A DNA stretch of 64,000 bases. Source: Solibacillus sp. FSL H8-0523 (GTDB lineage Bacteria > Bacillota > Bacilli > Bacillales_A > Planococcaceae). Location: positions 3,782,001 to 3,846,000 of the forward strand of contig NZ_CP150291.1 in the NCBI RefSeq assembly GCF_038051985.1. Direction: 5' to 3'. The position numbers and the translations under genes are program-made. The notes beneath the pieces are model-generated. The model worked only from the letters and a program-made list of their open reading frames with translations, did no database searches and had not been told where the DNA came from. This document shows positions 6,116 through 9,867 of the stretch, in pieces. How positions within the stretch are numbered: the stretch's first letter is position 1; the number at the start of each line of letters is the position of its first letter.

Positions 6116-6307
6116 GATGTGCGGCTGTCGCTTCGCTTTCGCCGCAAACGCTCGCTTTGCTACGCAAAAAATTTCTCCGGGCTAAAGCTCCTCGAAATTT
6201 GGCGATCCGAAAAGATGTGCGGCTGTCGCTTCGCTTTCGCCGCAAACGCTCGCTTTGCTACGCAAAAAATTTCTCCGGGCTAAAGCTCCTCGAAATTTGG
6301 CGATCGT
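6116..6307. repeat. 98-bp tandem repeat, two units, directly after guaA
   Basis: Unit 1 begins at 6116 and unit 2 at 6214 (period 98); unit 2 runs to 6307, the base before the guaA stop codon. Each unit contains nested dyads: GCGG..CCGC, GCAAA..TTTGC and AAATTTC..GAAATTT, the last followed by a T run on the minus strand as in an intrinsic terminator. The same array, almost base for base, follows the second guaA at 8072-8249. GC content is well above the neighbourhood. It looks like a REP- or MITE-like structured element; frames running through it are not genes. Confidence 0.9.
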
Positions 6308-7858
6308 TTACTCCCACTCAATAGTAGCTGGTGGCTTAGAAGTGATGTCATACAGCACGCGGTTAATGCCGTTTACTTCGTTGACAATACGTACAGAAAT
6401 CTTTTCTAACACGTCATAAGGAATGCGTGCCCAGTCAGATGTCATGCCGTCGATTGATGTTACGCCGCGGATACCGATTGCGTAGTCGTATGTACGGCCA
6501 TCGCCCATTACACCTACTGAACGGATGTCTGGTAATACGCAGAAGTATTGCCAAATGTCGCGCTCAAGTCCTGCGTTTTTGATTTCTTCACGTAAGATGA
6601 AGTCAGCTTCGCGTACGATTTCTAGTTTTTCTTCTGTTACTTCACCAAGTACACGGATACCTAATCCTGGACCTGGGAATGGTTGACGCCATACGACTGC
6701 TTCTGGAAGACCTAACTCTAAACCTAAAGCGCGTACTTCGTCTTTGAATAATGTATTAAGTGGTTCAATTAACTCGAACTTCATGTCTTCTGGTAATCCA
6801 CCTACGTTATGATGAGATTTAATTGTTTGGGCAGTTGCTGTACCAGATTCAATGATATCTGTGTAAAGCGTACCTTGTGCTAAGAAGTCCATGTCTTTTA
6901 ATTTTGCTGACTCTTCGTCAAACACGTAAATGAATTCGTTACCGATAATTTTACGTTTTTGTTCTGGATCAGACACGCCTTTAAGCTTGTTCATGAAGCG
7001 TTCACGTGCATCGATTTTGATTAATTTCATATCGAAGTCTTCTGTGAAAGTTTTCATTACTTGCTCAACTTCGCCTTTACGGTTTAAGTTGTGGTCTACG
7101 AACATACATGTTAATTGGTCTCCGATTGCTTTGTGGATTAATACCGCAACCACTGATGAGTCAACACCACCTGATAATGCGCAAAGTACTTGCTTGTCGC
7201 CCACTTGCTCACGGATTTTTGAAATTTCGATTTCGATGAAGTTTGCCATCGACCAATCGCCTTTAGCACCACAAATTTCGATTACGAAGTTTTTCAGTAA
7301 GTCGTTCCCGTATACAGAGTGACGTACTTCTGGGTGGAATTGTACTGCATATAGTTTACGAGATGTATCTGCCATTGCAGCGATTGGACAAGCTGGGCTC
7401 GTTGCGATTACTTCAAAGCCTTGTGGAACCGCTGTTACGTGGTCACCGTGGCTCATCCATACGATTTGGTCTTTCGGTAAGTCACCGAATAATTTGTTGT
7501 CTGTTGTAACGTTGATTTCGGCTTTACCGTATTCACGTGTTTCCGCGCCTTCAACTTTACCACCTTGTGTATGCGCCATTAGCTGCATGCCATAACAAAT
7601 ACCTAAGATCGGTAAACCTAAGTCAAAAATCGCTGGATCTACTTTGAATGCTGAATCATCGTATACCGAGTTTGGACCACCTGAGAATACGATACCGACA
7701 GCGTTCATGTCTTTAATTTCATCTGCTGTAATTGTATGTGGGTGTAATTCAGAGAACACGCCAAATTCACGGATACGGCGTGTAATTAATTGGTTAAATT
7801 GACTACCGAAATCTAATACTACGATTTTTTCTTGTTCTTTTAATAAGGGAGTTGACAC
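6308..7858 (-). CDS. guaA: GMP synthase (glutamine-hydrolysing)
   Basis: A 516-residue enzyme turning XMP into GMP with ATP and glutamine, the last step of guanine nucleotide synthesis. The class I glutaminase domain (1-~200) has Cys88 in GICYG and the His175/Glu177 pair in FHPE. The ATP pyrophosphatase domain has the PP-loop SGGVDSS at 229-235. The C-terminal dimerisation domain ends in TIEWE. The start is taken as the GTG at 7858, 6 bases after AGAGGTG; an earlier GTG at 7867 overlaps that site. Length matches B. subtilis GuaA (513). It lies downstream of a divergent paralogue and seems to be the functional copy. Its leader has a terminator-like hairpin but no recognisable aptamer. Confidence 0.96.
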
Positions 7859-7899
7859 GTTTTGCACCTCTTCTAGTTAGTTTCATCTATTTTTAATCA

Positions 7900-8071: not shown

Positions 8072-8249
8072 GCTTCGCTTTCGCCGCAAACGCTCGCTTT
8101 GCTACGCAAAAAATTTCTCCGGGCTAAAGCTCCTCGAAATTTGGCGATTCGAAAAGATGTGCGGCTGTCGCTTCGCTTTCGCCGCAAACGCTCGCTTTGC
8201 TACGCAAAAAATTTCTCCGGGCTAAAGCTCCTCGAAATTTGGCGATCGT
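8072..8249. repeat. 98-bp tandem repeat, truncated unit plus full unit, after guaA2
   Basis: The first unit lacks its first 14 bases and runs 8072-8155. The second starts at 8156 and ends at 8249, the base before the guaA2 stop codon, at exactly the same offset (94 bases) as behind the other guaA. The copies differ from those at 6116-6307 by roughly one base, although the two adjacent genes are strongly diverged. Confidence 0.9.
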
Positions 8250-9554
8250 TTACTCCCACTCGATCGTGCCGCCTGGTTTTGGTGACAGGTCGTAGCACAC
8301 GCGGTTAACGTGTTTTACTTCGTTAATGATACGGTCTGTGATTTTTAATAAGATCGGCCAGTCGATTGGCTCGATTGTTGCTGTCATCGCATCAATTGTG
8401 TTAACGGCACGAATGATTACTGGGTATTCATACGTACGCTCGTTATTACGAACACCTACTGATTTGAAGTTCGGTACAACCGTGAAATATTGCCATACTG
8501 TTTTGTCTAAACCAGCAAGTGCAAATTCCTCACGTAAAATCGCATCTGATTCACGTACTGCTTCAAGACGTTCTGGTTCAATTTCACCTAAAACTCGTAC
8601 ACCAAGGCCTGGACCTGGGAATGGTTGACGGTATACCATATCATGCGGTAAGCCAAGCTCTACGCCACATGCACGAACTTCGTCTTTGAATAATTGGAAT
8701 AATGGTTCCACTAATTCAAATTTCAAGTCTTCTGGTAAGCCACCTACGTTATGGTGAGATTTCACGACTTTATGTGTTTTTGTACCTGATTCTACGATAT
8801 CCGGATAAATTGTCCCTTGTGCTAAGAAGTCGATGCCGTCTAATTTACGTGCTTCTTCTTCAAATACACGAATGAATTCGTTCCCGATAATTTTACGTTT
8901 TTCTTCTGGTTCTGCTACGCCTTTAAGTTTGCCTAAGAAGCGCTCAGATGCATCTACGTAAATTAAGTTTTCTTCTAAGTCTTTTTCGAACATTTTAATA
9001 ACGCCTTCAGACTCATTTTTACGCATTAACCCGTGGTTTACGTGTACACAAACTAATTGCTTACCGATTGCTTTTACAAGTAATGCTGCAACAACTGAAG
9101 AATCTACACCGCCTGAAAGGGCTAAAAGTACTTTTTTATCGCCGATTTGCTCGCGCATTAACGCGATTTGATCTTCAACGAAGTTTTTCATGTTCCAGTT
9201 TGCTTCTGCTTTACATGTATCGAATACGAAATCTTTTAGAATTACTTTCGATTCTTCTTCATTTGGCCATACTGCTAATGTTTTAAGAGCTTTCGTAGAA
9301 GGATGTTCTACACTAATAACAGGAATATCTAAATTATAGATTTCATCTAATACGTCGATTGCTTCACCGTCAATGATATTATTTTTACCACCGTTTAAAA
9401 TAATCCCTTTTACAGTTTTTAAATTTTTAATATTCTCGGCAGTAATATCATGTGCATGAATTTCACTATATACGCCTAAATCACGAATCCAACGGGCAAT
9501 CGTTGTATTCTCACTACTACCTAAATCTAATACTAAAATGTTATCTTGCTTCAA
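8250..9554 (-). CDS. GuaA-like protein with degenerate, shortened glutaminase domain
   Basis: A 434-residue GMP synthase paralogue. The ATP pyrophosphatase and dimerisation domains are intact: SGGVDSS at 147-153, [22 protein letters not shown] and the terminal TIEWE. The N-terminal glutaminase domain is cut from ~200 to ~115 residues. Its LDLGSS and LNGGK blocks survive, but the nucleophile block GICYG is replaced by ISVEHP, and the block with the catalytic His and Glu is gone. It therefore cannot hydrolyse glutamine; ammonia-dependent XMP amination, or another nucleotide amination, is possible. The TTG at 9554 is chosen because AGGAGG lies 10 bases before it. It occupies the slot after yebA where B. 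subtilis keeps guaA, and is led by a purine riboswitch. Confidence 0.85.
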   Translation of the reverse strand: MKQDNILVLDLGSSENTTIARWIRDLGVYSEIHAHDITAENIKNLKTVKGIILNGGKNNIIDGEAIDVLDEIYNLDIPVISVEHPSTKALKTLAVWPNEEESKVILKDFVFDTCKAEANWNMKNFVEDQIALMREQIGDKKVLLALSGGVDSSVVAALLVKAIGKQLVCVHVNHGLMRKNESEGVIKMFEKDLEENLIYVDASERFLGKLKGVAEPEEKRKIIGNEFIRVFEEEARKLDGIDFLAQGTIYPDIVESGTKTHKVVKSHHNVGGLPEDLKFELVEPLFQLFKDEVRACGVELGLPHDMVYRQPFPGPGLGVRVLGEIEPERLEAVRESDAILREEFALAGLDKTVWQYFTVVPNFKSVGVRNNERTYEYPVIIRAVNTIDAMTATIEPIDWPILLKITDRIINEVKHVNRVCYDLSPKPGGTIEWE

Positions 9555-9643
9555 GCTAATACAGCCTCCTATTAATGTGTTGTCCAACTATTTTTGTTTT
9601 TCCCATCACTTCAAACAATTTGTATAGAGGGCCTAAAAACGGC

Positions 9644-9688
9644 AAAAAACGCGTAGAAAAACCAATTTACACAAGCTTTTCTACGCGT
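9644..9688 (-). terminator. Riboswitch expression-platform terminator of guaA2
   Basis: On the minus strand AACGCGTAGAAAA pairs with TTTTCTACGCGTT and is followed by TTTTTT. It lies between the purine aptamer and the coding start, so ligand binding would be expected to favour it and switch guaA2 off. Confidence 0.85.
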
Positions 9689-9745
9689 TCTCCTCATTAT
9701 TTATATAGGCAGATAGACGTCTCCAAAAAGGTACACGTCTACCTA

Positions 9746-9817
9746 CCGTCATAGAATAAGTTGTTTATGGTAACTTAGTAGAAACACCCGAACCGTATTA
9801 TCGGGCCTATATGAAGG
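9746..9817 (-). ncRNA. Purine riboswitch aptamer (guanine type)
   Basis: Minus-strand elements in order: P1 CCTTCATA with TATGACGG (one mismatch), P2 CCCG/CGGG around the GATAATACGG loop, the invariant GTTTCTAC junction, P3 AAGTT/AACTT around ACCATAAAC, then a junction TTCTATGA. The residue equivalent to C74 of the B. subtilis xpt aptamer is C, which pairs with guanine rather than adenine. A stem AGACGT/ACGTCT at 9716-9740 and the terminator at 9644-9688 complete the platform. It lies in the 313-base leader between yebA and guaA2. Confidence 0.9.
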
Positions 9818-9867
9818 CACATCACTTATTGATTTTTTTTAAATTTTACTCTTTACTATCCCTAAAA

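Follow-up and report, generated by a model that had tools for sequence, protein, structure and literature searches.

Gene content of the guaA locus

The window analysed here, a stretch of 64,000 nucleotides from Solibacillus sp. FSL H8-0523 (NZ_CP150291.1, positions 3,782,001 to 3,846,000 of the forward strand), encodes two neighbouring genes for guanosine monophosphate (GMP) synthetase, both on the minus strand: a short guaA (8250..9554, stop codon included), whose 434-aa product lacks the glutaminase active site, and a complete guaA of the glutamine-hydrolysing type (6308..7867; 519 aa; NF000848, 824 bits; TIGR00888, 269 bits), which the first-pass annotation of this DNA had rightly placed beside the short gene. 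These are the only two guaA genes of the genome (4.14 Mb, one contig), and the full one gives its only TIGR00888 match over the cut-off. Read along the minus strand, on which all features described below are located, the locus is composed of a purine riboswitch aptamer, a terminator-like hairpin, the short guaA, two repeats (98 bp spacing), the full guaA and the same two repeats.

The short gene is contained in an open reading frame (ORF) at 8250-9587(-), in which the conserved start is the TTG codon at 9554, preceded by an AGGAGG ribosome-binding site (9565..9570, minus strand). The N-terminal (M/L)KQD, conserved across phyla in the alignment, fits this start.

Domain structure of the short GuaA

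Residues 1-104 (9243..9554, minus strand) are the remnant of a class I glutamine amidotransferase (GATase) domain, recognized by partial Pfam and NCBIfam matches (Pfam GATase, profile positions 1-76 of 190 only), and include the interface helix alpha1 (residues 16-25). The site of the nucleophile motif GICYG is occupied in the alignment by ISVEHP (residues 80-85; 9300..9317, minus strand). Both GICYG and the QFHPE block, which carries the catalytic His and Glu, are absent according to the alignment and BLASTP, leaving no Cys-His-Glu triad, and the TIGR00888 glutaminase profile reaches 53.8 bits, below its cut-off of 172.15. On profile score and triad alike, the protein is not a glutamine-hydrolysing GMP synthase (EC 6.3.5.2), the label ('glutamine-hydrolyzing GMP synthase') that the short form bears in two annotated records.

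The remainder of the protein (residues 105-434; 8253..9242, minus strand) corresponds to the ATP pyrophosphatase and dimerisation domains. Catalytic motifs are retained there, among them the PP-loop SGGVDSS (residues 147-153; 9096..9116, minus strand, by alignment), GMP_synt_C is complete, and TIGR00884, the synthetase profile, scores 456.5 bits (curated cut-off 338.75). In BLASTP comparisons with the full copy of the window, from which it differs in length by about 85 residues (434 versus 519 aa), the short GuaA is 61% identical along residues 105-434 and 43% identical along residues 2-82, with no significant segment between residues 82 and 105. The first-pass annotation had described a glutaminase domain deprived of its nucleophile, of the His/Glu block and of about 80 residues, joined to a synthetase with intact ATP-pyrophosphatase and dimerisation motifs; BLASTP, Pfam, TIGR00888 and the alignment confirm the former, and TIGR00884 (456 bits) and the complete GMP_synt_C the latter. 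A frameshift or an assembly error is ruled out as the cause, since the same form occurs as a single open match to residues 1-434 in 5 of 16 genomes of the genus, and also across phyla.

Among 50 aligned short forms, the PP-loop SGGVDS, DXXES, the lid KSHH (its Ser nearly so), KD(D/E)V(K/R) and the C-terminal loop binding xanthosine monophosphate (XMP) are invariant; the roles of these residues are taken from the available text of PMC10526850 and PMC4673825. Reduced forms also share changes specific to their clade: the lid IK(S/T)HH starts with V in 71 of 71 sequences, and V(F)V(D) is replaced by VHVN (contig-end fragment L045 dropped from this count; L061, with ambiguous letters, and L101, cut off, left out). 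The GATase remnant is modelled with a pLDDT (predicted local distance difference test) of 87-97 per 10-residue block, and the predicted structure aligns with Escherichia coli GMP synthetase 9kpv over 408 residues. In this model, the remnant with helix alpha1 would occupy the docking face.

Distribution, phylogeny and selection

The same short form was sought in related genera and found, which excludes its absence from close relatives. Within the genus, it is encoded in 5 of 16 species (own species included; 91-100% identity), and a full guaA in all 16. The family sample contains the short gene in 12 of its 151 genomes, belonging to 4 of 19 genera; 11 of these 12 genomes have a full guaA as well. 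It is also present in 27 of 200 genomes sampled from the family of a Lachnospiraceae genome and in 4 of 149 sampled from the order of a Bacteroidales bin, the latter sample being used for short-form counts only because its threshold hides some full guaA genes.

A scan of genome contigs, of which the best 80 loci were retained and which is hence biased towards close relatives, returned 68 short forms (three cut at a contig end), three synthetase-only forms (L105, L108, L111) and nine full guaA genes. Short forms among these 80 share 61-94% identity with the window protein over nearly its whole length, across phyla (Bacillota, Bacteroidota and Kiritimatiellota), and their sources include Caryophanon, Sporosarcina sp. 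ACRSM, Lachnospiraceae, Oscillospiraceae, Erysipelotrichaceae, Bacteroidales and Kiritimatiellae. One source record (L035/G183), titled Arthrobacter beigongshangensis REN13, is probably mislabelled or contaminated, because its short guaA and neighbouring genes group with Sporosarcina sp. ACRSM.

In a tree of the synthetase part (112 rows, quick method), the reduced forms lie on one side of a single branch with a Shimodaira-Hasegawa-like approximate likelihood ratio test (SH-aLRT) support of 100 and a stem length of 0.66. L061 and L101 were left out of this tree; L045 is a contig-end fragment of another guaA, and L063, L086 and L095 (a contig-end piece) are short forms. The synthetase-only forms, open frames of 327-351 aa from Clostridia bins and, in one case, a Spirochaetaceae bin, fall inside the short clade; they have no remnant, and their stretch before the lid is shorter. 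Pairwise ratios of nonsynonymous to synonymous substitution rates (dN/dS) among nine Planococcaceae short sequences are 0.01-0.06 for the synthetase part and 0.05-0.20 for the GATase remnant (34 of 36 pairs; two saturated). The short form is an old clade under strong purifying selection. A protein short of about 85 residues and deprived of one active site could evoke a decaying duplicate, or a pseudo-enzyme that merely modulates GuaA; this reading is extremely improbable and close to refuted by the dN/dS values of the synthetase part, by the identity kept over nearly the whole length across phyla and by the genomes, described below, in which no full guaA is found.

Genomes without a full guaA

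In a search of 42 whole genomes with reduced forms, picked from the best 80 loci, no full guaA was found in 13, namely 11 with the 434-aa form and two with the synthetase-only form. Strains with the short gene as sole copy include Sporosarcina sp. ACRSM and REN13. TIGR00888 exceeds its cut-off in none of these 13 genomes and does so in all 14 controls, four archaea among them. Weaker matches to this profile, in 10 of the 13, have the lengths of CarA (about 360-430 aa), TrpG/PabA (about 190-220 aa) or other GATases; in G026, G049 and G052, it matches nothing besides the short gene itself. Among the 11 genomes with the 434-aa form as sole copy, 8 have an inosine monophosphate (IMP) dehydrogenase and 7 a PurH over the respective cut-off (G183 standing for G019, same coordinates), six of these seven having both; neither synthetase-only genome has an IMP dehydrogenase over the cut-off. 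Furthermore, guaB adjoins the short gene in G037 and G038, an ORF with an IMP dehydrogenase domain precedes it in L088 and L090, and in two Sporosarcina-like genomes the lone short gene is flanked by a transglutaminase-domain gene and a xanthine/uracil permease family gene (domains checked in REN13). Given the lack of a full guaA and of a GuaA-type glutaminase, and the presence of IMP dehydrogenase and PurH, the short form evidently acts as the GMP synthase in such genomes, as far as gene content can tell.

These genomes also bear on the possibility that a glutaminase acting in trans supplies the ammonia, whether this is the GATase domain of a full GuaA encoded in the same genome and joined to the short chain as a heterodimer, or some other class I GATase. 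Two-subunit GMP synthetases do exist in archaea, according to the available part of the literature. The two copies of the window are 61% identical over the synthetase and dimerisation parts, and the two genes adjoin here and in several unrelated genomes, with about 35-130 bp from the stop of the full gene to the start of the short one in L061, L080, L093, L145, L146 and one Parabacteroides distasonis record. Class I GATases that are CarA- or TrpG-like by length, each of which may be a candidate partner, are encoded in 10 of the 13 genomes without a full guaA. However, a heteromer with GuaA is inapplicable where there is no full GuaA, a GuaA-type GATase over the cut-off is missing from all 13 genomes, and G026, G049 and G052 have no other match to the GATase profile at all. 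Moreover, the genes are distant in some genomes (about 0.73 Mb in G036), and in the model the remnant with helix alpha1 would sit on the docking face. A partner glutaminase is thus a quite unlikely explanation in general, although one could operate where both genes exist, as here. The first-pass annotation had left the choice between an ammonia-dependent GMP synthase and a synthetase working with a glutaminase in trans, perhaps as a heteromer; comparison supports the former well, and the latter is not the general mechanism, seven PurH-positive genomes having the short enzyme as the only GMP synthase found and no GuaA-type glutaminase over the cut-off.

An enzyme without the target cysteine would keep GMP synthesis running under attack by competitors, and the short form could accordingly serve to bypass glutamine antagonists of the azaserine, 6-diazo-5-oxo-L-norleucine (DON) or acivicin type, or nucleoside inhibitors of GMP synthetase. 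The second copy beside an intact enzyme, the spread across phyla, the integrase genes located downstream (about 1.0-1.8 kb away) in at least six gut loci and the altered synthetase residues, lid included, are in line with such a role. Sole-copy genomes in which guaB adjoins the gene point instead to a housekeeping role, and the bypass is considered unlikely.

Proposed nitrogen source

Taken together, sequence comparisons make it highly probable that the short GuaA is a working GMP synthetase with free ammonia as its nitrogen source. The enzyme would homodimerise and adenylate XMP, and free ammonia would then attack adenyl-XMP directly; the retained glutaminase part, with helix alpha1, would remain docked against interface helices alpha11/alpha12, forming a fixed cap. 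In Solibacillus sp. FSL H8-0523, it would provide an ammonia route beside the glutamine-dependent enzyme, behind an old purine riboswitch.

Several observations weigh against this proposal. Known GMP synthetases use free ammonia only at high concentration, so either the niche would be rich in ammonia or the affinity of the short enzyme would be better. The substitutions typical of the clade (F to H, D to N and, in the lid, I to V; sites H171, N173 and V264) may be a sign of altered kinetics or of an altered substrate. In 29 of the 42 genomes, as in the window, the reduced form is accompanied by a full guaA. Among the sole-copy genomes, IMP dehydrogenase is below the cut-off in G028, G034 and G049 (match split in G049) and PurH in G028, G039 and G052, and G049 has no PurH match; G334, outside the 42, likewise has the short gene, no full guaA and a PurH below the cut-off. 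Finally, the absence of a full guaA may sometimes reflect incompleteness, because the titles identify 11 of the 13 genomes as metagenome bins; a completeness value (99%) is available for strain REN13 alone.

A separate case is found in the family of the window. The sole guaA found in G059 (L151:2270-3820; completeness 100) encodes GISYG in place of GICYG, the nucleophile Cys being changed to Ser. Its product shares 51% identity with the full GuaA of the window in the glutaminase part and 77% in the synthetase part, whereas three other genomes with 76-77% synthetase identity to the same protein show 59-61% in the glutaminase part; the glutaminase domain of this protein thus diverges fast. This 517-aa guaA occupies the slot held by the short gene in the two Sporosarcina-like genomes, with one of which G059 is congeneric. 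It looks like a second, separate glutaminase loss in a sole GMP synthetase, though the change could also be a one-codon sequencing error.

A ruminant gut compartment is named in the titles of 24 of 69 reduced loci among the best 80 (22 cecum, colon or rectum and two stomach; L061 and L101 left out, the latter from rumen). This is only a lead towards ammonia-rich niches, as the count may also reflect the make-up of the source collection. Concerning Sporosarcina pasteurii, the available text of PMC7775470 reports that ammonia is mandatory and that urea can replace it. Tentatively, and with more doubt than confidence, it may be proposed that glutamine was abandoned repeatedly as the nitrogen donor for GMP by bacteria living where ammonia abounds (hindgut, dung, urea-rich soil): one reduced GuaA clade would have passed from phylum to phylum, replacing the glutamine enzyme in some lineages, and one Planococcaceae sole GuaA would have been disarmed by Cys to Ser. 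If so, such strains would need free ammonia to make guanine nucleotides, and this could account for part of the old ammonia requirement of Sporosarcina-type bacteria.

Purine riboswitch and leader

The leader of the short gene contains a purine riboswitch aptamer (RF00167; 9732..9834, minus strand; 65.3 bits, gathering score 37) and, between aptamer and gene, a terminator-like hairpin with a T run (about 9644..9690, minus strand), recognized from sequence and fold; a simple terminator scan did not list this hairpin, and the fold of 9630-9834 has a z-score of -6.0. The aptamer has a C at what we take to be the specificity position, and would thus be of the guanine type. Its strand after P3 contains one additional U, its score is 65 bits versus 74-84 bits in relatives, and it may be weakened. 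The full guaA of the window has no Rfam purine match, as the first-pass annotation had noted.

A purine-aptamer motif precedes the full guaA in 11 genomes of the genus without the short gene (by regular expression, Rfam confirming 3 of 3 tested; one match of the expression, in L038, was taken as false). The aptamer therefore normally leads the full guaA in the genus, and the short gene sits between the riboswitch and the old guaA. Rfam places an aptamer upstream of the short gene in just four cases, namely the window and the Caryophanon loci L032, L033 and L142 (L142/G089 being assigned to Caryophanon from a genus code in common with the genome of L032). It is located between the short and full genes in G001, G002 and G014, and downstream of the short gene, between it and the permease gene, in L034 and L035. 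None was found in the stretches read from G012, G074, G118 and G127, which have the short gene, nor in eight gut loci scanned with Rfam. The riboswitch was consequently rejected as a defining partner of the short form, its position varying or the aptamer being absent among relatives; riboswitch control of the short gene is local and probably an accident of position, the gene having arrived beside an old regulated guaA. Of the guanine-type riboswitch with terminator put forward in the first-pass annotation, aptamer and hairpin are retained, with the reservations of the extra base and of the usual pairing with the full guaA. Guanine repression of the short guaA, also suggested there, would hold, on sequence grounds, for this species and Caryophanon and is not a trait of the short form generally.

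Repeats and mobile elements

The 3' end of the short guaA and two repeat units 98 bp apart, right after the stop codon (8072..8351, minus strand), are matched by the 3' end of the full guaA and the same two units (6130..6409, minus strand; 280 nt, 88% identical to 8072-8351). Only these four units were found in the whole genome, all directly behind guaA stop codons. Related units follow guaA stop codons in G012 (both genes), in G014 and G002 (short gene) and in Caryophanon L032 and L033 (full gene), which suggests a small element or an attachment-site scar.

It is known that guaA is the integration site of Tn5801-type elements. In at least six gut loci (L040, L042, L082, L083, L091, L098), the 3' end of the short guaA is followed, at a distance of about 1.0-1.8 kb, by genes coding for tyrosine integrases (Pfam), so that the short gene may, by analogy, itself be an integration site. 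On viral contigs, three loci were found, all with a full guaA by match length (1,527 nt) and no short form, no search of phage collections having been made. Plasmid carriage was considered and rejected: the short gene occurs in three 'plasmid' records, two of them with gene sets of chromosomal appearance and one with almost no annotation. NZ_OY725961.1 and NZ_OY725764.1, filed as plasmids, carry kdp, hydrogenase and guaA genes and look like chromosome pieces. On the Enterococcus plasmid NZ_LR135354.1, a stretch without an annotated gene resembles guaA (60% identity to query residues 80-434); it adjoins a predicted cfr(D) gene and seems to be a fragment of a full-type guaA.

Comparison with known systems

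Bacterial GMP synthetases are described as two-domain, glutamine-using enzymes in the available text of a review, and no description of a bacterial short GuaA was found in the open-licence PubMed Central (PMC) literature. The phylogeny of PMC9312489, as far as its available text indicates, was restricted to sequences whose alignment covered at least 80% of the canonical domains, so the short form would tend to be excluded. It is likely an ammonia-dependent variant of a known enzyme, not described before in the literature found. A widespread form without a glutaminase site alters flux predictions for gut bacteria; it is also a natural experiment on the service rendered by the glutaminase domain to the synthetase, and gives a direct test of ammonia as a physiological donor. 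Since the Parabacteroides distasonis record carries the short gene (product WP_022191716.1) and the full one side by side, a cultivable gut species is usable for such study.

With the known pairing of RF00167 and guaA, the window shares an aptamer over the gathering score, a terminator-like hairpin and the presumed guanine-type C; it differs in that the riboswitch before a short gene, confined to the window and the three Caryophanon loci, is no family trait. The short form resembles two-domain GuaA (EC 6.3.5.2; E. coli 1GPM, Plasmodium falciparum 3UOW/4WIO) in its ATP pyrophosphatase and dimerisation domains, XMP-binding C-terminus and interface helices, and differs by a GATase domain cut to about 104 residues without Cys-His-Glu, by the lid V and by VHVN. 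With the archaeal two-subunit GMP synthetase (GuaAa and GuaAb; Methanocaldococcus jannaschii 6JP9, Pyrococcus horikoshii 2DPL), it has in common a synthetase chain without an active glutaminase of its own, but it keeps a GATase remnant, and the 13 genomes without a full guaA offer no GuaA-type GATase over the cut-off; the synthetase-only L105, L108 and L111 are close in architecture to the archaeal synthetase subunit. As for ammonia-dependent NAD synthetase NadE, whose single-domain form has been reported as the likely ancestor, the substrate differs, and the short GuaA, unlike that single-domain enzyme, keeps part of the glutaminase domain.
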